A stretch of 64,000 nt of DNA, taken from the NCBI GenBank assembly GCA_016213785.1, contig JACQZQ010000053.1, positions 124,001 through 188,000 on the forward strand, read 5' to 3'. The notes beneath the pieces were generated by a model. It was not told the origin of the DNA. It saw only the letters and a program-made list of their open reading frames with translations, and did no database searches. Below, in pieces: positions 2,568 to 14,546 of the stretch. The DNA is from Acidobacteriota bacterium. GTDB taxonomy: Bacteria; Acidobacteriota; Blastocatellia; Chloracidobacteriales; JADJPF01. Both the position numbers and the translations under genes were made by a program. Positions within the stretch are counted from its first letter, which is position 1, and each line of letters opens with the position of its first letter.

Positions 2568-4559
2568 TTATAGCTCAGATGCTTTATTCATAAAGTTTTG
2601 AGCTTCATTAGGTGGACAATACCTAGCAAGTTCTTGAATGAAAGAGCCATAAAACTGATTTGGCTCAAAATCTTGTATTACTCTAGCTTGTTCAGCATGT
2701 TTTATTGCGCTAACAACAGAAAGAAAAACTTCATTTACTGAGCGTCCTGTAAAACCTACTTTTTGTCTTGCCCAAGAAACAATAGCTTCAATTAAGTTTG
2801 TTCTCTCTATATAAATAGGCGGTCTAGTCTTAAATAACGAAGTAAGAGAATCAGCAACAACTAAGGGGGCTTTTCTATCTTCTAGATATTCAAATAAATC
2901 ATTAAGTGCACTTTCAAGATCAATTTTTCCTACTCGTGCTGCTATTGTTCCTTTTATTGAGGGTTTAGGCAGAGAGCTATTTTGATAGGCAAAGCCATCA
3001 TTTGCCCAGCTATTAGAGGGTTGGTTACTTGGTGGTGTAAATGATGGTTGTAGATAATTAGATGGCGGTGTAAATGACGGTTGTAAATAACTTGGAGGTG
3101 TAGGGCTTAGGTTTGGATTTGAATAACTACTAGAAGGCTTTGGAGCTTGATAAGTTTGTGAAGGAACTTGATATTCTGAAGCCCCTTGTGAAGGAATTTG
3201 GTAGGGTGAGGATTGCCCTGATTGATAAGATGAGGCTTGGGAAGACGCTTGCCCAGGTGATGATTGATAGGGGGGCGACTGATAGCCTTGTGGTCTAGGT
3301 ATTATAGAAGAAGCATCTGTTGAGACTCTTCTAGGTTGAGCTAAATTAGCAGAACTATTTGTTAAAGGCATTTGTGGTCTAGCTAGACTAGCAGAACTAT
3401 TTGTTAAACTAATAGCTTGGGCAAGACCTGCTCCTGGTAATTCTGTTTGTAGCTTGTTATAGAGTTTTGTCAAATTGGCAAAAATATAATCTATGTCTTC
3501 TCTTATTTGTCTAGGTGCTTGAATAAATTTATCAGGGTGAAACTTTGTAGCTAGTCTATAGTAGGCATTTTGTACTTCTTCTTGGCTAGGATCGGGACTA
3601 AGACCAAAAATTACCCTAGCATCTTGAGTTGATACACGGTCTTTAATTAGTGAAATATCACGTTTTACTCTTTCTAAATCAAGCGGAGCGGGTGTTTGAA
3701 CTTGTATGGGTGGTGCAACTGTTTCAGCTATAAGCTCTGCTGGTAGAGGCACTTGTTCAGTGTTTTTAACTGTGTACTCAGCAGGCAAAGCGCTTGCAGC
3801 TTGCTGTTGTAAAGCTTGAGGAGCAACCATTTTTCCCGTCGTTGCTGATAGTTCTGCGCTCTCTCCTTGCCTTAAAAGCCCTATTGAAAGTAGTCCATAA
3901 AGGGCTTTTAGGGTTTTTTGTGGTGTTTCGTGTATAGAAATTAAAACTTTAATTATATCTGTAGGCTGTTTAACTAGCTCTAAAATCCTTTGTTCAACAG
4001 GCTTAAGCACAATTGATTGAAGCCTTAGCAAAGGAATATTTGTAGGTACAAGTAAGCGATTAAGATCGCCTAATCCACGTCTAATAACATCATAATCTTC
4101 AACTCTCCTTACACCCTCTAAAATTACTGTTGCTGTAGAAAGTCTTAATTTTAAGTCTTCAGGAGCAAGATAATTATCACCTTCAGCAAATTCATAAGCT
4201 CCAACAGTCCAACTAAAGAGCGAGTAAATAATGTCTATTATCTGAAAATTAACAAAACTAATTAATTCACGTGGGTCAAGTGCGCCTTGTTCTACTAGAA
4301 AATTGCCTAAGTGTTGTCCTGGCGTTAAAGCTCCTAGTACTACAGTAAGCTGTTCACGTGTAAGCTTACTATGACGAACTAAAGTTTCTCCTATACGATC
4401 CTCGTTACGATTACTTGAGGCAAAAACAATTTGTCCTAACTCAAAAAATACTTGTTTACGAACATCTCCTTGAGTAAGAATAAGGGTTCCTGTGCGACGT
4501 TCTGTGTAAATAGTACGTAATAAGTCTGGTAAGCAAGCTGTTGTTAAAGTACCTCGCAT
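2568..4559 (-). CDS. DUF4388 (PATAN) and J-domain protein with long disordered linker
   Basis: This is a 663-residue protein. The N-terminal 100 or so residues form a DUF4388/PATAN domain (GTLILTQGDVRKQVFFELGQIVFASSN), followed by the helical region usual in this family (to about 250). A J-like domain at about 308-370 has an intact HPD tripeptide in ATKFHPDKF. Residues from about 385 to 545 are Ser/Pro/Gln/Tyr-rich and repetitive, clearly disordered. A helical C-terminal domain of about 110 residues follows, which I do not recognise. PATAN domains act as interaction modules in bacterial signalling, while HPD suggests contact with a DnaK chaperone; the combined role is inference. It is the simplest relative in this window of the larger PATAN-J-TPR proteins at 18.5-35.9 kb. 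Confidence 0.75.
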   Translation of the reverse strand: MRGTLTTACLPDLLRTIYTERRTGTLILTQGDVRKQVFFELGQIVFASSNRNEDRIGETLVRHSKLTREQLTVVLGALTPGQHLGNFLVEQGALDPRELISFVNFQIIDIIYSLFSWTVGAYEFAEGDNYLAPEDLKLRLSTATVILEGVRRVEDYDVIRRGLGDLNRLLVPTNIPLLRLQSIVLKPVEQRILELVKQPTDIIKVLISIHETPQKTLKALYGLLSIGLLRQGESAELSATTGKMVAPQALQQQAASALPAEYTVKNTEQVPLPAELIAETVAPPIQVQTPAPLDLERVKRDISLIKDRVSTQDARVIFGLSPDPSQEEVQNAYYRLATKFHPDKFIQAPRQIREDIDYIFANLTKLYNKLQTELPGAGLAQAISLTNSSASLARPQMPLTNSSANLAQPRRVSTDASSIIPRPQGYQSPPYQSSPGQASSQASSYQSGQSSPYQIPSQGASEYQVPSQTYQAPKPSSSYSNPNLSPTPPSYLQPSFTPPSNYLQPSFTPPSNQPSNSWANDGFAYQNSSLPKPSIKGTIAARVGKIDLESALNDLFEYLEDRKAPLVVADSLTSLFKTRPPIYIERTNLIEAIVSWARQKVGFTGRSVNEVFLSVVSAIKHAEQARVIQDFEPNQFYGSFIQELARYCPPNEAQNFMNKASEL

Positions 4560-6558: not shown

Positions 6559-7677
6559 ATGGAAAATATTACTCACTCGCTCTTTGGTTTAGCGCTTTAT
6601 CGTAGCGGATTTGAACGCTATGTTCCAAACTCTATGATGCTTTGGATAATTGGGGCTAATCTTCCTGATATTGATATTATTGCTCAGCTTTTTGGAAAAA
6701 CTGCCTATCTAGACCACCATAGAGGTTTTACTCACTCAGTCCTAGGAATAATTATTCTTTCGCTAGTACTATCTACCTTTTATTTTTTTTTCCTACAAAG
6801 ACGATATTCTAGAAATAAATTAAAAGCCCCTCCAGAGAAAAATGGAAAAAGCTCTCCTCCAATTTGGTTAAGGCTCTTTTTAGCCTCACTACTTGCTGTG
6901 GGCACACATCCATTACTTGATGCTTTAAATAATTATGGTATTAGACCTTTTCAACCTCTAAACCAAAATTGGTTTTATGGAGATTTGGTTTTTATTGTTG
7001 ATCCTTGGATTTGGTTAATTCTTGGTGGGACAATTTTTCTTTCTAGTAACCGCTCAAAAAATTTAGCTTCTTTTTGGGTTGTAGTTACTATAATTGCTTG
7101 GCAAGTGATGTTTTTTTCAGGACGTGTTGCTAATTTAGCTTTAGCTATTTGGAGTACTGGAATTCTTTTAATAACCACTTTAAGACTAAAACTAAAAGAG
7201 ACTATTTTAATTAATAGATTTTCTTTTGTTAGAGGATCCTTAATATTACTTTGTTTTTATTTGGCAGGGCTTTTTTATTTTCAAGGTCAGGCTCTTGATA
7301 AAACAGGAAAATATCTAGAAAAAGAAATCTCTGACCCTATAAGAAAATTTTCTGTTTCTCCTACTGCGGCAAACCCTTTTGGATGGGAATATTTGGCTGA
7401 GAGTCAAAATTATTTTTATTATGGAAAGCTTAATTTAATTAATGGTAATTTTTCTAGCCCAAAAAAAATTTTTATTGATAGAAATAACCCTGTTTTAGAA
7501 CAAGCCTTAAAAACTAAAGAGGGTTTAGCTATGAAGAATTTTAGCCGCTATCTTATAGCTGAACTAGAACCTACTACTAATGGAACAAATGTAACTTTAT
7601 GTGATGGTCGCTATGTAAGAGATTTTCGAGGCTCTCACCCCGAATTTGCTTGTATTAAAGTTTTAGTGTCAAAATAA
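6559..7677 (+). CDS. YdjM-like membrane-bound metal-dependent hydrolase (DUF457 family)
   Basis: This is a 372-residue integral membrane protein. The N-terminus MENITHSLFG, then ANLPDID, DHHRGFTHSVLG and GTHPLLDALNNYG are the conserved His/Asp motifs of the YdjM/LexA-regulated hydrolase family (PF04307), which are thought to bind metal. Several hydrophobic helices fill about residues 55-220. A C-terminal soluble region of about 130 residues is probably extracytoplasmic. The TTG at 6547 opens a longer frame, but the ATG at 6559 gives the canonical family N-terminus. The physiological substrate is not known for this family. It is the last gene before the replication/partition module. Confidence 0.8.
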   Translation: MENITHSLFGLALYRSGFERYVPNSMMLWIIGANLPDIDIIAQLFGKTAYLDHHRGFTHSVLGIIILSLVLSTFYFFFLQRRYSRNKLKAPPEKNGKSSPPIWLRLFLASLLAVGTHPLLDALNNYGIRPFQPLNQNWFYGDLVFIVDPWIWLILGGTIFLSSNRSKNLASFWVVVTIIAWQVMFFSGRVANLALAIWSTGILLITTLRLKLKETILINRFSFVRGSLILLCFYLAGLFYFQGQALDKTGKYLEKEISDPIRKFSVSPTAANPFGWEYLAESQNYFYYGKLNLINGNFSSPKKIFIDRNNPVLEQALKTKEGLAMKNFSRYLIAELEPTTNGTNVTLCDGRYVRDFRGSHPEFACIKVLVSK

Positions 7678-7822
7678 AATTATTATTAATGGTAAAATTT
7701 TTTCTTATAAACTTCTGCGTTCCTTGTGAAACAAAATTATTCCAGATTTGTTTAATTTTTTATTCCGTTAAAAATATTTGACAATAATTTTAAAACCTAC
7801 CTCTAACTTTCTAAAATAATTT

Positions 7823-7985
7823 GATCAAAATGATCAGAATGATCTAAGAAAAACGATCAGCTTGATCATTTTCTTGATCGATGATCAAAATGATCAGAAT
7901 GATCAAATTTGATCATTCTGATCTAAATTAAGTCTATAATTATCTGATTTTATTAAATAACAGGGTGGTAACTTACTACTTGATC
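7823..7985. repeat. GATC cluster with 32-bp perfect palindrome downstream of parB (candidate centromere)
   Basis: The gap 7678-7990 holds no gene. It contains twelve GATC tetramers between 7823 and 7985, most spaced 9-12 bases apart. An 18-base direct repeat, AAAATGATCAGAATGATC, occurs at 7827-7844 and 7887-7904. From 7892 to 7923 there is a perfect 32-bp palindrome whose left half is GATCAGAATGATCAAA. It lies about 70 bases beyond the parB stop, where plasmid centromeres are often found. It could also fold as a transcript-ending hairpin. No canonical chromosomal parS (TGTTTCACGTGAAACA) is present in the module. Confidence 0.6.
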
Positions 7986-7990
7986 AAAAA

Positions 7991-9079
7991 CTATTTATTC
8001 ATAGTTACAAACTCGACTAGTTGAGATAGCTCGCTTAATTTTTCTTTAAGCTGTTGCTGCTGCTCGTCTGAAAGGGTTTCTAGTCGTATTTTTTTAAGCT
8101 GTTTAAGGGTGTTAGCCGTTAGAGCTTGTAACTCAGGCGAAGAAACTTTTTGATTTATTTTAGGAGTTTGTTCCTCTTGAAGTTGATTTATTTTTTCTTG
8201 AATAAGTCGTCTAATAGCTCCAAGTGATAAAGATTTTATAATAGTTTGTTCTAGAATAGATTTTCTAATCTCTTTAGCTTGATTTTCAGTACAAGCTAGA
8301 GTTTGATTTGTTAAACGGCTAATTAAACGGGCTTTGGTATATTCTAATTTTCCTTCACGTAAGGCTTCTAATATATCATTTGGTAAACGTCTAAGTGGTA
8401 AGCGGTGTTGAATAAATGATAACCAATTAGTTTTTCCTATAGCGGAAAAAACAGTCTCAACAATTAAGGATAAGTTAATAACAACGTTGTTATTAACTCG
8501 GCTACGAGAAACTTTATTTTCAGAGTCTACTTTTTGTGCTGTACGATGGTTATTCATTGCAAATAGTAGCCTTAATACATCACCATAAGGGTCTTCATCA
8601 TTTGCACGAGCAAAAGATAAAAAGCCGTCTTCTCCAGTTAATTTAAGTTTAAGCAGTGCTAAATAACCTTCAGTCTCTTCTATTGGGTTTAGATCTTCAC
8701 GTTGAAGGTTTTCAATTAAAGCTAGCTGAAGGGCTTCTTCATCTGAAAGAGAACGAACAATGGTAGGAATGTCTAAGAGTCCTGCTAAACGGGCAGCTTG
8801 CCATCGGCGTTCACCTGCAACAATTTCATATCGAGCACTATTTGTTAGACTTGTTAAATTATTAGATTTTATTTCTCTAACAATAATTGGTTGTAGCACT
8901 CCACTTTGTTTAATAGACTCAACTAAAGCATTTAAGGCACTTGCATCTAATCGGCGACGAGGTTGATTAGGATTAGGAATAATTGTCTCAAGCAAAAGTC
9001 TACGTACAGCAACAGCATCAGCATCAGGTACAGCAGTAGTAGCAAATAAAGCATCTATTCCAAGTCGTTTTTTAGCCAT
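7991..9079 (-). CDS. parB: ParB-family partition protein (plasmid type)
   Basis: This is a 362-residue DNA-binding partition protein. The ParB N-terminal (CTP-binding) domain is clear: a P-N-P-N-Q-P-R-R-R segment, GERRWQAARLAGL (GERRxR box with Gln at the last position) and IENLQREDLNPIEETEGY. The next region differs from chromosomal ParB: it lacks the obvious helix-turn-helix after that box and instead has a long segment with TNWLSFIQHRLPLRRLPNDILEALREGKLEYTKA. From memory, that pattern resembles ParB-like proteins of cyanobacterial and other plasmids. The C-terminus is a Gln/Glu-rich helical tail, a probable dimerisation region. Its start overlaps the parA end by 8 bases, so the two are translationally coupled. 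Confidence 0.85.
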   Translation of the reverse strand: MAKKRLGIDALFATTAVPDADAVAVRRLLLETIIPNPNQPRRRLDASALNALVESIKQSGVLQPIIVREIKSNNLTSLTNSARYEIVAGERRWQAARLAGLLDIPTIVRSLSDEEALQLALIENLQREDLNPIEETEGYLALLKLKLTGEDGFLSFARANDEDPYGDVLRLLFAMNNHRTAQKVDSENKVSRSRVNNNVVINLSLIVETVFSAIGKTNWLSFIQHRLPLRRLPNDILEALREGKLEYTKARLISRLTNQTLACTENQAKEIRKSILEQTIIKSLSLGAIRRLIQEKINQLQEEQTPKINQKVSSPELQALTANTLKQLKKIRLETLSDEQQQQLKEKLSELSQLVEFVTMNK

Positions 9080-9824
9080 TTAATAACCCTTCCGCAAGTT
9101 TTTTAATATCACTTATTCCATCAAATCTTGGTGAATGAAGTTGTACAGGTAAAGCTCGCGCTGCGGCTTCAGCAAATGCAACTCCACGTCTGATAGGAGA
9201 AAATACTCTTAAGCGATTACCAAAACGATTTTGTATAACCTCATAAGTTTCTGTATTCAAACGAGTTCTAGCATCTAAAAGTGTAGGCAAAATACCAGCT
9301 ATTTTTAAGTTAGGGTTAAGCAATCTAACTTTTTCGATAGTATCAAATAAATGTTTAGTCCCTCTTAAGGCTTTAATTTCACATTGGACAGGGATAAGAA
9401 TTTCATCTGCTGCAACTAAAACATTAATAGATATATTGCCTAGGGAAGGAGGAGCATCAATAATAATAAAATCATAGTTATCTTTAACTGGTCTTAAGGT
9501 TTCTTTTAGGCGTAATTCGCGGCCAATTTCAGCATTAAGTAAAAAGTCTGCCGTAGCTAAATCTATTGTAGATGGAATTAAGTCCATACCATGTAAAGTG
9601 TGTATTGGTAGGCTTTCGCGGTGTATTATTGCATCAAATAAACTATGTTCTATTTGATCTGTATTTAGCCCTAAAAACTCTGTTAAAGATGCTTGAGGAT
9701 CAGCATCTACAAGAAGGACTTTTTGTTTATTTTGAGCAAGCTCATAGCCTAAGTCCCTTGTTAATGAAGACTTACCAACTCCGCCTGCTTGATTAAATAT
9801 TGCTATTGTTCGTGTTATTGCCAA
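9072..9824 (-). CDS. parA: ParA-family partition ATPase
   Basis: This 250-residue Walker-type ATPase is the motor for replicon partition. The deviant Walker A motif NQAGGVGKSSLTRDLG, the Walker A' region LLVDADPQASLTEFLGL and the Walker B region FIIIDAPPSLG are all visible. There is no N-terminal helix-turn-helix extension, so autoregulation would rely on ParB or the origin repeats. AAGGAG (complement of 9831-9836) is followed by a 6-base spacer and a TTG at 9824; the in-frame TTG at 9830 directly abuts the Shine-Dalgarno, so 9824 is preferred. Three iterons lie immediately upstream, in the promoter region. Confidence 0.92.
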   Translation of the reverse strand: MAITRTIAIFNQAGGVGKSSLTRDLGYELAQNKQKVLLVDADPQASLTEFLGLNTDQIEHSLFDAIIHRESLPIHTLHGMDLIPSTIDLATADFLLNAEIGRELRLKETLRPVKDNYDFIIIDAPPSLGNISINVLVAADEILIPVQCEIKALRGTKHLFDTIEKVRLLNPNLKIAGILPTLLDARTRLNTETYEVIQNRFGNRLRVFSPIRRGVAFAEAAARALPVQLHSPRFDGISDIKKLAEGLLNG

Positions 9825-9875
9825 AATCAACTCCTTAGTTGAAGATCAAAACTTTATTTTATTTTTGTAAAACTA

Positions 9876-9927
9876 TTAACACTTGAAATAAGTTTATTAA
9901 CAGTTGAAGTAAAACCATTAACAGTTG
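9876..9927 (+). repeat. Three iterons in the parA promoter region
   Basis: TTAACACTTG at 9876-9885 and TTAACAGTTG at 9897-9906 and 9918-9927 repeat with an exact 21-base period. They have the same core as the main origin array and lie 50-100 bases upstream of parA, so the initiator may also control partition-gene expression. Confidence 0.8.
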
Positions 9928-9943
9928 AAATAAAACCATTGGC

Positions 9944-10119
9944 TTTTCTGTAATTTGTGATAATAACTCTACTGCGGCTTTTTAAGGGTATTTATCCTGT
10001 TATTACAGAAAAATAAGACGGTTTTTGACAATTTAATATCGCATAAATTACAAATTTTGTCATTAGCACTATTACAAAATGACATATAAGCGAAATAAAC
10101 CATTTATCACAACTGTTAA
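9944..10119. promoter_or_regulatory. Inverted repeats and one inverted iteron between parA and the origin array
   Basis: An 11-base inverted repeat, TTTTCTGTAAT (9944-9954) and ATTACAGAAAA (10002-10012), is followed by a smaller TGTCATT/AATGACA dyad inside about 10058-10084. CAACTGTTAA at 10110-10119 is a single iteron in the opposite orientation. The arrangement looks like operator and promoter DNA for parAB and the origin, but I could not define a confident promoter. Confidence 0.45.
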
Positions 10120-10141
10120 TACTTAGAATTGCTATAAGGTT

Positions 10142-10270
10142 GATCGCTGCTTGATCTAGGTTGATCAAATTTGATCTAGCTTGATCTAATCTGATCTCAA
10201 AATTTGATCTAGTTTGATCTAACCCGATCTCAAAATTTGATCTAGTTTGATCGTATTAACAGTTGAGATC
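10142..10270. repeat. GATC array with roughly 10-bp period beside the iterons
   Basis: GATC occurs at 10142, 10153, 10163, 10173, 10183, 10193, 10206, 10216, 10226, 10239, 10249 and 10267, mostly as TTGATCTAG-like units spaced 10 (10-13) bases apart, about one helical turn. Within it, a perfect 27-base direct repeat occurs at 10193-10219 and 10226-10252. Such a cluster suggests phased protein binding and/or adenine-methylation control of initiation. Confidence 0.8.
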
Positions 10271-10486
10271 AAAAGTGTTAACAGTTGAAATAACCAACTA
10301 TTAACAGTTGGAAGAATTGTTATTAACACTTGTAGTTACAACTATTAACAGTTGCCATAAGAGCTATTAACAGTTGGAAGTAAAACTATTAACACTTGAA
10401 AGTAATTTTTATTAACAGTTGAGATAAAAATATATTAACAGTTGAAATAAAAGTAATAACAGTTGAAATAAAAGTAATAACAGTTG
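10256..10486 (+). repeat. Main iteron array of the replication origin (11 copies)
   Basis: Copies of TTAACAGTTG (variants TTAACACTTG and ATAACAGTTG) start at 10256, 10278, 10301, 10323, 10345, 10367, 10389, 10412, 10435, 10456 and 10477. The spacing is 21-23 bases, about two helical turns, which places all copies on one DNA face. Tandem same-face repeats upstream of a Rep gene are the hallmark of iteron plasmid origins, where the initiator binds and regulates copy number. Confidence 0.9.
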
Positions 10487-10543
10487 AAATAACAAAAAAA
10501 GCTAACGCTAATATTTACAATAAGATACTCAAGTAGTCGAGTT

Positions 10544-10610
10544 TGCTATATATATATGTTTATATTAAATATAAATGTAAATGATCAATATATATATATG
10601 TGGATAGATA
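10544..10610. other. AT-rich unwinding-type stretch with a DnaA-box-like site
   Basis: This stretch is almost only A and T, with two runs of alternating TA. At its end, TGTGGATAG (10599-10607) matches the DnaA box consensus TGTGGATAA at eight of nine positions. Lying between the iterons and the rep gene, it is the natural candidate for the duplex-unwinding element. It may also hold the rep promoter. Confidence 0.55.
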
Positions 10611-10648
10611 TTAATAGATGAGTTAAATGTATGTTGGAGGAATTAATT

Positions 10649-12346
10649 ATGGACAAACAGCCAAACCAAGAACCACGCCTTAAATATGCAAGAGCGAAGA
10701 TGCATAGTAGTGAACAAGTTGAACTAGTACGTGTTTCTTTGGATGAATTTAATTTGGCTACATTTCCTGTCTCTGTACTTGATAAAAAAGCACAACGTAG
10801 TCATGAACCACTGCAATTTCATGATGTAATTGTAGTGGGGGGACGGCAGATTGAAAGACAATGGAAAGTTTTTCCGCATGCGGAAGAAGGCTTTCCTGGC
10901 CCAGCCGATGATGATGTACTAATGGCTTTATTTGAATTAACTAGAGAACAAGGTGGAGCAAAGAAAATCTTTTTTACTCGTTATCAATTATGTAAAAAGC
11001 TGGGCTGGCCGCTTAACACTTTTTATTATAGTCGAATAGAGTCTAGTTTTCGTAAACTAGCTGGTATTCATATTGAAGCTACTAATGCTTTTGGTGATCA
11101 AGAGCGTAAAAAGTTTATCAATATGGGTTTTAGTATAATTCAAGAGTATAAACTTTTTGATGAAACTGCTGGCAGGGAAAAACTCTCTTATGTTTTATGG
11201 TCAGACCGTATAGCTGCCTCTATTAGCCAAAAGTTAACAAAATATCTTGATGCTAGCTTTTATTTTGAAGAACTAGAAACCCCTCTTGAAAAAAGATTAT
11301 TTCGCTATTTAGATAATCAATTTGAACTAGGGCAAGCTCAACTTTCTCTAGATATTCATGGGCTTTGTTATGAACATTTAGGAGTAGCTAGACGCTATCG
11401 CTACACCTCACAGCTAATGCAAAAATTAGAAGGGCCTTTGCAAAAATTAGTAGATAAAGGGTTTTTACAACGTTGGCGACTTGAGGGCGAGATTTTATGG
11501 ATAGTTCGTGCTGAAGGTTTTGCTAGCCGAGTTACCTTTTCTATTCCCTATAGTGAAATGCTTAGTGATATTTCTGCTGTAACACAATCAAACTCACAAT
11601 CAAATGCACAGCAAACAATACAATCAAACTCACAATCAAATCCACAACCAACAAACCAAAATATATCGTCTGAAAATTCTACAAATAAACGAGTTTTTAG
11701 AAAAAAAGCAGAAAGTAAAATAATTCAACAAGTTGTAGAGAAAGATGAAGCCTCGGTTTTAGTTAAAGAACTTGCCTTACGTGGTGTAGAGTTAGGAGTA
11801 GCAAAGGATATAATTTCTCGCACAGTAGGCTGTGAGGAAGAAATAATGGAAGCAATAAAATATTTTGATGCTGAATGTGCAAGAGGCAAAAAATTTGATA
11901 ACCCTGGAGGACTTTTAGTTAGTTTAATTAGAAAATGTCTTCCTGCTGAACAACTTCCTCCTTCACGAAGCCCCCAAGTAGCAAAGAAAGCTACTACAAG
12001 TCCTACAATTCCTACAAACACATCCACAAAAAAAATAGTTTATCAAAAAAATGCTTCAACTACTGATTTATTAACGGCTAGAGCAGAACTTCAGTATCAA
12101 GAATATGTTATGGAACTTGGTCGTGAAACTTATAAAAGTCTTTCTTTAGTAGAGCAAAAGAGGTTGCTTAGTAATGCCCAATCTGAGTTACAATCAGGAA
12201 TACACGCAAACAAATATAGAAGAATGTCATCAGAAAAATTTGCTGAACACTTACGTACTACTGTGGAAACACAGTTAAGTCGTCAATTGGCTTTGCCTTT
12301 TGAGGAGTGGTATCAACAATGGCTGATAAATGGAAAAAAACGCTAA
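10649..12346 (+). CDS. repA: Plasmid-type replication initiator (RepA/RPA family)
   Basis: This is a 565-residue replicon initiator. Residues from about 15 to 300 resemble the replication initiator protein A family (PF10134): PVSVLDKKAQRSHEP, DDDVLMALFELT, the RYQLCKKLGWP winged-helix segment, and the ALxW-like YVLWSDRIAASI strand. A Gln/Asn/Ser-rich linker follows at about 315-350, encoded by imperfect direct repeats, and then a helical C-terminal half of unknown role. A longer frame begins at ATG 10631, but GGAGG at 10636-10640 is correctly spaced (8 bases) for the ATG at 10649. It would bind the iterons just upstream and start replication. The gene is divergent from parAB, the usual layout of low-copy replicons. 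Confidence 0.87.
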   Translation: MDKQPNQEPRLKYARAKMHSSEQVELVRVSLDEFNLATFPVSVLDKKAQRSHEPLQFHDVIVVGGRQIERQWKVFPHAEEGFPGPADDDVLMALFELTREQGGAKKIFFTRYQLCKKLGWPLNTFYYSRIESSFRKLAGIHIEATNAFGDQERKKFINMGFSIIQEYKLFDETAGREKLSYVLWSDRIAASISQKLTKYLDASFYFEELETPLEKRLFRYLDNQFELGQAQLSLDIHGLCYEHLGVARRYRYTSQLMQKLEGPLQKLVDKGFLQRWRLEGEILWIVRAEGFASRVTFSIPYSEMLSDISAVTQSNSQSNAQQTIQSNSQSNPQPTNQNISSENSTNKRVFRKKAESKIIQQVVEKDEASVLVKELALRGVELGVAKDIISRTVGCEEEIMEAIKYFDAECARGKKFDNPGGLLVSLIRKCLPAEQLPPSRSPQVAKKATTSPTIPTNTSTKKIVYQKNASTTDLLTARAELQYQEYVMELGRETYKSLSLVEQKRLLSNAQSELQSGIHANKYRRMSSEKFAEHLRTTVETQLSRQLALPFEEWYQQWLINGKKR

Positions 12347-12386
12347 GCAAAACTCTAATTAAGTTACTAAGGAAAGGAGAAAGCTT

Positions 12387-14546
12387 GTGAAAGGCCATAT
12401 TCAAAATAAAAGATATAGCAGAGCCATTATTGCTCTGGTAATGCTATGTGCACTGATAATAAGTTGGTTTCCTATAAATTTTGTTGATGCTCAAACAAAT
12501 AATACTAATGTTACAGTAGACCTTGCTAATAATGCTGCTGCGGATTCTATTTTATTTGGTAATAGCAATTCTATGGCAGGTTCATCGATCGCAGTAGGCG
12601 ATATAAATGGAGATCAAATAGATGATTTAGTTGTTGGTGTACCTAGTAATGATGCTCCTGGAGATAGAACACGTGCAGGAGAAGTCAAAGTATTTTTTGG
12701 TGGAACAAATTTTAAGGGTAACTTTGACTTAAACTCAATGCGTGGAGATGTTCAAATATTTGGTGCTAATGCATTTGATTTATTAGGCTCAAATGTTGGT
12801 TTATTTGATGTTAACTCTGATGGAATACGCGATCTTATTATGGCTGCACCTGGTGGTGATGGAATAAATGATGCTAGAGATAATGCTGGTGAAGTTCTTG
12901 CTATATTTGGTGGTAGTAGTTTTAGAGCAGGTGTAATAGATTTAGCCGTCTCTAGACCTGGACTTATAGCCGTTGGGCCAAATATTAATTCGCAAATTGG
13001 TAGTAGTCTTGCAGGAGCAGACCTTAATGGTGATGGTAATCAAGATTTAATTATTGGTGCCCCTTCAGCAAGCCAACAAAATGCTGGTATTGTATTTGCC
13101 CTAAGAGGCGTAAGTATTACTATTGGTAGCACTCGAACAGTAGATTTAGGTGGTAGTCAAGATATAGTATTTTCAATAACAGTTAATGCCGCAAATGCAA
13201 GACTTGGTACTAATGTTGCTGCTGGTGATGTTAATGGTGATGGTAGACAAGACCTTGTATTTTCTGCTCCAGGTTTAACTAATAGTAGTGGTGCTGTAAC
13301 AGGAGGTGTATTAGTTCTTAATGGGCCTATTATGTTACAAAGACCTACAGACACTATAACCCCAAACTTTATTGGAATGGGGCCGTCTAACTCTTCTCGT
13401 TTTGGTGAGGGACTTGTAGTAGGTGATATTGATGGCGACCAAATTGATGATTTAATAGTTAGTGCTCCAGGACAATCTGCAAATGGTCGTACTAACTCTG
13501 GTCAAACCTATGTATTTTATGGTGGTGCAACTCTTTCAGGTAGCAAGGATCTTTCTAATACTACAGCAGATGCCTCATTTTCTGGCGCTAATCCTGGGGA
13601 TCAGTTAGGAAGCGCACTTTCTATTAATCCAGGAACTACAACCCCTGTATTAAGTGTTTCTCCTTTACTATTAGCTGATATTAACCGAGATGGAATGAGA
13701 GACCTTATTATTGGTGCTCCAAATTCAACAAATCCTGCTGGTCGTCCTCGTAATGGTCAAGCTTTAATTTTCCTTAAAGGCGGTAATCGCTTTGAACAAA
13801 GAGATATACAAACTAAACCAGCAGATGTAACTATTTTAGGTGCTCGTGCAGGTGATCAAATAGCTAATAGATTTGCAGTAGGTGATATTAATAGTGATAC
13901 TAAACCAGATTTAGTTATTGCTGCCCCAACTTCATCTGGGCCACAAAATCGCACCAGTGGTGGAGCAATCTTTGTAGTATCAAACTTTAATCTTAATGCT
14001 CAAGGCAATAATCAACCTCCTGTTTTAAGTGTTGTTGCTAATCAAGTTGTCCCAGAAACTGCTACAGTAATGGTTGATTTTTCTGCTCTTGATCCTGATG
14101 GTGCTATAACTTTTTCTCTTGACCGTCCTCCAACCCCAAGCTTTGTTACACTTCAAGATTTAGGTGGTGGTAGGGGTAGACTTATTATTTCTCCTCCTGC
14201 TGGTAGTAGAGGTAGTTATACTATCGCTCTTCGTGCGACTGATAACGGTAATCCTCCTTTATTTGATGCTAAAAGTTTTAGTTTAACCGTAACTCCACCA
14301 GCGCCAACAATTATGACAGCCACTTTTGATGGTAAGAACTTAACCATTATTGGTAGCCGTTTTGGAACAAGCCCAAAAGTACGTATTAATAATGTTGATC
14401 AATCGGCTAAGATCAAATCTTCTTCAGATACCTCTATTACTCTTAAAGGTAAGTCTAAGAAACTAGGACTAGTTCCAGGTGCTAATATGGTTATTGTTAC
14501 AGATTCGGCAGGAAATGCTTCACAGCCATTTGTCCTAACCCTATAA
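12387..14546 (+). CDS. Secreted FG-GAP (integrin-alpha-like) protein with TIG-like C-terminus
   Basis: This is a 719-residue exported protein. A signal peptide covers about residues 1-36 (hydrophobic core IIALVMLCALIISW, cut near VDA-Q). Seven FG-GAP-type calcium-binding motifs of the form D-x-N-x-D-x-x-D-L follow between about residues 65 and 510 (for example VGDINGDQIDDLVVG and GADLNGDGNQDLIIG), giving a likely seven-bladed propeller. A cadherin/Ig-like domain (about 540-635) and a final TIG/IPT-like domain (about 640-719) complete it. It probably acts in surface adhesion or matrix binding; no partner can be named. The GTG start is preceded by AAAGGAGA. It follows rep by 40 bases but ends in its own terminator, so co-transcription with rep may be incidental. 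Confidence 0.85.
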   Translation: MKGHIQNKRYSRAIIALVMLCALIISWFPINFVDAQTNNTNVTVDLANNAAADSILFGNSNSMAGSSIAVGDINGDQIDDLVVGVPSNDAPGDRTRAGEVKVFFGGTNFKGNFDLNSMRGDVQIFGANAFDLLGSNVGLFDVNSDGIRDLIMAAPGGDGINDARDNAGEVLAIFGGSSFRAGVIDLAVSRPGLIAVGPNINSQIGSSLAGADLNGDGNQDLIIGAPSASQQNAGIVFALRGVSITIGSTRTVDLGGSQDIVFSITVNAANARLGTNVAAGDVNGDGRQDLVFSAPGLTNSSGAVTGGVLVLNGPIMLQRPTDTITPNFIGMGPSNSSRFGEGLVVGDIDGDQIDDLIVSAPGQSANGRTNSGQTYVFYGGATLSGSKDLSNTTADASFSGANPGDQLGSALSINPGTTTPVLSVSPLLLADINRDGMRDLIIGAPNSTNPAGRPRNGQALIFLKGGNRFEQRDIQTKPADVTILGARAGDQIANRFAVGDINSDTKPDLVIAAPTSSGPQNRTSGGAIFVVSNFNLNAQGNNQPPVLSVVANQVVPETATVMVDFSALDPDGAITFSLDRPPTPSFVTLQDLGGGRGRLIISPPAGSRGSYTIALRATDNGNPPLFDAKSFSLTVTPPAPTIMTATFDGKNLTIIGSRFGTSPKVRINNVDQSAKIKSSSDTSITLKGKSKKLGLVPGANMVIVTDSAGNASQPFVLTL

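Follow-up and report, generated by a model that had tools for sequence, protein, structure and literature searches.

Once-per-cycle control of replication by GATC methylation is known from Gammaproteobacteria with SeqA, and plasmid P1 oriR carries a block of GATC repeats (heptamers) beside its iterons. In Vibrio cholerae ori2, GATC-bearing 12-mers are spaced at 10-11 bp and are bound by RctB in a methylation-dependent manner (PMC6090056, PMC2865523). Escherichia coli oriC contains 11 GATC, and efficient binding of SeqA in vitro is seen with a pair of GATC phased two to three helical turns apart (PMC5145175).

The stretch of DNA analysed here (the window, 64 kb on contig C31) was taken from the 6.4-Mb draft genome of an Acidobacteriota bacterium (Blastocatellia; G000) and was compared with a second species of the same genus (G001), another genus of the same family (G002) and a third genus of that family (G003). 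Its parA-rpa intergenic region resembles V. cholerae ori2 as a secondary-replicon iteron-type origin with GATC at 10-11-bp steps and with Dam present (PMC6090056, PMC2865523). In ori2, however, GATC lies inside the initiator sites and SeqA exists, whereas here a separate GATC block stands beside GATC-free iterons, the initiator is of the RPA type, SeqA was not detected and the host belongs to another phylum. High GATC density at the origin is shared with sequestration at E. coli oriC and the dnaA promoter, and candidate DnaA boxes between dnaA and dnaN overlap GATC here; in contrast to E. coli, the clusters are denser, occur on many replicons as well as at a distance of 13-32 kb from dnaA, lie partly in coding genes, and are not accompanied by a detectable SeqA. 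Plasmid P1 oriR differs in initiator family, host phylum, and number and spacing of GATC. The first-pass annotation of this DNA knew of no such design beside RPA-type initiators; V. cholerae ori2 and plasmid P1 oriR are nevertheless precedents. Alphaproteobacterial CcrM-GANTC control (repABC replicons) is similar in its stand-alone adenine methylase, origin-rich motif and lack of SeqA (PMC6090056), but uses GANTC and CcrM instead of GATC and a Dam-family enzyme. The best reading is a functional likeness to E. coli oriC and V. cholerae ori2, in which the clusters would be a Dam-dependent, initiator-independent origin mark acting as a remethylation timer or by sequestration.

The GATC array of the RPA-type origin

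The locus comprises, in order, a left iteron block (9869..9933, plus strand; three copies of TATTAACAnTTGAAATAA type at 21-bp steps, repeat family D1) with a single inverted iteron CAACTGTTAATA (10109..10121, minus strand; inverted repeats I4-I10), the GATC array (10142..10270), a right iteron block (10254..10492, plus strand; about 11 copies of ATTAACAGTTG type at about 22-bp steps), an AT-rich stretch that is a candidate unwinding element (10543..10606), and the gene for an RPA-family replication initiator (10631..12346, plus strand; match to Pfam PF10134). Genes matching ParA ATPase (9072..9830) and the ParB partition protein (7991..9079) are located on the minus strand. The PF10134 initiator, the iterons and ParA together with ParB are those of an RPA-type plasmid/chromid replicon. 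RPA relatives sit on a contig of about 1.0 Mb in two-contig genomes of the same order; this contig is presumably a second chromosome, as in Chloracidobacterium. The named relatives are MAGs labelled Blastocatellia bacterium. A second cassette, made up of parA and Rep_O and with its own GATC clusters, lies some 15 kb away from that of RPA (C31:115.7-118.5 kb; stretch L048, 7669-10467), and the presence of both cassettes on C31 suggests two origins on one replicon.

The array consists of 12 GATC in 129 bp, starting at 10142, 10153, 10163, 10173, 10183, 10193, 10206, 10216, 10226, 10239, 10249 and 10267 (steps of 11, 10, 10, 10, 10, 13, 10, 10, 13, 10 and 18 bp). In window positions 7001-13000, the densest 132 bp held 12 GATC, a count that never exceeded 5 in 500 shuffles preserving dinucleotides, and a local 201-bp segment held 12 against a maximum of 5 in 1000 shuffles. 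The array is partly generated by a 33-bp tandem unit, AAATTTGATCTAGnTTGATCTAAnCnGATCTCA (10167..10259, plus strand; repeat family D3), with starts at 10167 and 10200 and a partial third copy at 10233; the perfect 27-mer shared by the copies at 10200 and 10233 is part of this unit, to which the earlier relative at 10167 is 91% identical. A 10.5-bp phase was found for the sites (R=0.79, p about 0.001 versus random steps of 6-14). The 12 sites, the spacing of mostly 10 bases and the perfect 27-base repeat described in the first-pass annotation all hold.

A second array, missed in that annotation, lies behind parB (7823..7985); its first 11 sites, about 9 bp apart, extend to 7923 and are followed by one more at 7982; helical phase at 10.5 bp was absent from 7823-7923 (R=0.16). 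The orthologous G001 array has 8 sites and is phased (R=0.88 at 10.5 bp), whereas all seven other clusters tested lacked this phase. Helical phasing as a general rule was therefore rejected. The emphasis formerly placed on phasing holds for the RPA-origin array and its G001 orthologue, to which phasing is specific; the property shared by the clusters is GATC density.

The phased position of the array among iterons, in both species, could also mean that GATC is part of initiator recognition, RPA itself binding the 10-bp array as RctB does in V. cholerae, where the ori2-min region has six 12-mers, each with GATC, 10 or 11 bp apart (PMC6090056). In the window, the TTAACAGTTG-type iterons of the right block contain no GATC and the GATC block is separate from them; thus the helical 10-11-bp phase of ori2 is found here, but not its placement of GATC within the initiator binding sites, as far as the iterons are concerned. 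Moreover, clusters accompany three unrelated initiator families, each of which has separate repeats of its own sequence, and in G002 the RPA origin has iterons and no GATC array at that place. Recognition by the initiator is for these reasons distinctly unlikely.

GATC clusters at initiator genes

The whole G000 genome was searched for three GATC at 8-12-bp steps; genome-wide statements rest on such pattern searches together with about 0.9 Mb of sequence. Such triples occurred at 57 places, compared with about 2 expected (a hand estimate from GATC frequency), and were concentrated on contigs C31 and C75. Among the 50 listed of these 57, 16 flanked the sole full-length dnaA (C75:54.5 kb), the RPA cassette held 10, and Rep_O-type initiators accounted for most of the others. 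On C75, valS contains a cluster of 24 GATC at 41 kb, one of 16 lies between genes at 66 kb, and an amidohydrolase gene has one of 20 in its N-terminal part at 87 kb; those at 41 and 87 kb are 13-32 kb from dnaA, and their origin-linked status was assigned post hoc. All four Rep_O (phage-O-like) initiator genes detected in G000 had dense clusters, in or beside genes neighbouring parA (C31:116-118 kb, C91, C112 and C117). Clusters were thus present at every initiator class detected, DnaA, RPA and Rep_O, and the earlier view of the design as one tied to RPA-type initiators was too narrow. Within 897 kb of contigs, chosen partly for pattern hits, a density of at least 6 GATC per 120 bp was reached by 12 clusters, 11 of them at initiator-linked loci, and 4-mers of similar or lower abundance gave at most 5 clusters each.

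Because of this choice of contigs, more weight was given to the converse test, in which initiator loci were collected without regard to GATC. Of the four family genomes searched with the HMM for Phage_rep_O, three (G000-G002) had matches, at 12 loci in all. Within about 1.5 kb of the gene, ten had 7-12 GATC per 120 bp, and the other two (G001 C822 and G002 C128) reached only 4 and 5 GATC per 120 bp; among the six loci not previously seen, four were positive (at least 7 GATC per 120 bp). As a control, 222 non-origin 3.2-kb tiles of G000 were scanned, and a single tile, that of a DUF1015/HARE-HTH locus, reached 6 GATC per 120 bp.

This tie to initiators weighs against a neutral or selfish expansion, by which slippage would enlarge GATC repeats in an AT-rich genome without function. 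Such an expansion would account for the visible 33-bp tandem duplication, the copy number varying by species (12 versus 8) and the invasion of coding linkers by clusters, but not for the GATC core being kept while spacing and flanks vary, nor for the failure of similarly abundant 4-mers to cluster in this way. We regard it as very improbable.

What the clusters have in common is GATC itself. The direct repeats within Rep_O genes differ from gene to gene, and RPA uses iterons of its own. The flanking bases change between species, so that a longer operator including GATC is unsupported. In the dnaA-dnaN gap of both species, GGATCCACA motifs that are candidate DnaA boxes overlap GATC (L091, 7463-7771; L145, 9730-10057). 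Steps between sites in coding regions favour multiples of three (47/77 in G000 and 56/82 in G001), and in-gene clusters encode polar linkers rich in Asp, Gln and Arg (stretches L049, 10945-13662; L051, 5520-7067; L168, 807-1254); in valyl-tRNA synthetase, the cluster encodes an insertion that is absent from the closest solved structure of this enzyme, 1gax. The in-gene clusters thus appear to reflect DNA-level selection that is tolerated by the proteins.

Clusters in related genomes and the question of segregation

In G001, clusters were found at the orthologous RPA origin, behind parB, at a second RPA gene (C470) and in Rep_O genes, with 11 GATC in 328 bp of the dnaA-dnaN gap and 37 GATC in 448 bp of a valS fragment. 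No parA was found on the contig of the second RPA gene, nor near another G001 initiator with a GATC cluster (C105; rep plus AAA). In G002, a 502-bp segment behind gyrB holds 32 GATC; it lies at the amidohydrolase gene that also carries a cluster in G000. An additional cluster was found on the dnaA contig of G002. No clusters were present in the 60 kb read around dnaA of G003, though gyrB and the amidohydrolase gene are located there and Dam is encoded in the genome; Dam alone therefore does not require clusters. The dnaA regions of five more distant genomes had at most 4 GATC per 120 bp.

These relatives also bear on a role in segregation or in organisation of the origin domain, with a GATC-binding centromere-like or condensing factor acting together with ParA/ParB. 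In the window, parAB is flanked by the arrays, parA occurs without an evident parB in several Rep_O cassettes, and C75 has parS-like sites to either side of the valS cluster as well as at other places, all of which would suit such a role. The chromosome, however, already has canonical parS sites, and the clusters at initiators without ParA found nearby (C470 and C105 of G001) favour initiation over segregation. A segregation role is accordingly judged unlikely. The parS-like sites beside the valS cluster are at 10972 and 12370 of stretch L049, and further parS sites on C75 were located at 3960, 97211 and 97262.

The Dam methylase, a possible reader and the proposed timer

The first-pass annotation had pointed to Dam-type control of origins as a parallel and suggested a genome search for a Dam-type methyltransferase and a SeqA-like or other GATC-binding protein. 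A Dam-family methylase was found in G000 (TIGR00571, 309 bits versus a cut-off of 114.85), and Dam is present in all four family genomes (84, 62 and 58% identity) with conserved neighbours (synteny). SeqA (PF03925) gave no match over the cut-off in G000-G003, whereas the E. coli control was detected, and a SeqA homologue was accordingly rejected. The parallel is strengthened by the methylase and by the GATC clusters at origins genome-wide, but not as regards SeqA; over-representation of GATC at the origin, as in sequestration of the Dam/SeqA type, is present.

Dam-family genes are often part of restriction systems, and two further D12-class methylases are encoded in G000, so that GATC could serve restriction-modification or mismatch repair unrelated to initiation. 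No restriction gene was evident beside Dam in the four family genomes, as judged from neighbouring ORFs, its neighbours are conserved, and neither use predicts clustering at origins. To this explanation we attach hardly any credence.

A mark shared by origins whose initiators are unrelated, an apparently solitary methylase in the matching specificity class, and conservation of density and not of phase fit a timer based on methylation state. The dense GATC clusters are probably a genus-wide origin module that provides, through the conserved and apparently solitary Dam, either a methylation timer or a docking site for a reader. Dam would methylate the clusters at DnaA, RPA and Rep_O origins, and after replication both sister copies of a cluster would be hemimethylated. 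With their many sites, the clusters might then act as the timer itself, or as the landing strip for a protein reading the hemi- or fully methylated state, and a freshly copied origin would not be fired again until it had been remethylated. The clusters, their association with origins and the Dam gene were observed, and SeqA was not detected; methylation of the GATC sites, a protein that reads them and control of initiation as the outcome are inferred.

A broader proposal, put forward tentatively as somewhat less probable than not, is that a SeqA-independent and initiator-independent replication checkpoint evolved in Blastocatellia, in which an orphan Dam and a putative GATC reader would provide one remethylation clock for the chromosome, the second replicon and phage-O-type replicons, and selection would push clusters into coding linkers near the origin (valS). 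If so, this control logic would have arisen again, with another reader, in a separate lineage that has Dam and extreme GATC clusters at nearly all origins. GATC clusters also offer a simple search handle for origins in such genomes and for the reader. Literature searches, confined to open-licence papers, gave no earlier report of such clusters or such control.

Among the conserved GATC clusters, a single one is not located at an initiator; it lies between DUF1015 and the gene for a HARE-HTH protein (L056, 5470-5519 and 5925-6569, on C92 of G000; L170, 2420-2509, on C586 of G001) and counts against the reading of the clusters as an origin mark. Strong full-length matches to the HARE-HTH protein were found only within this family. 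With a GATC cluster upstream of its gene, the protein could be a weak candidate for the reader. It is rated no higher, since G003 has the protein without clusters and HARE-HTH more likely senses cytosine modification according to a paper on adenine-methylation sensors (PMC11037411).

In G017, a GC-rich relative with no match to the G000 Dam, 98 GATC triples were counted, and a 19-bp tandem repeat containing GATC is present on one contig (stretch L074, 15594-15692).
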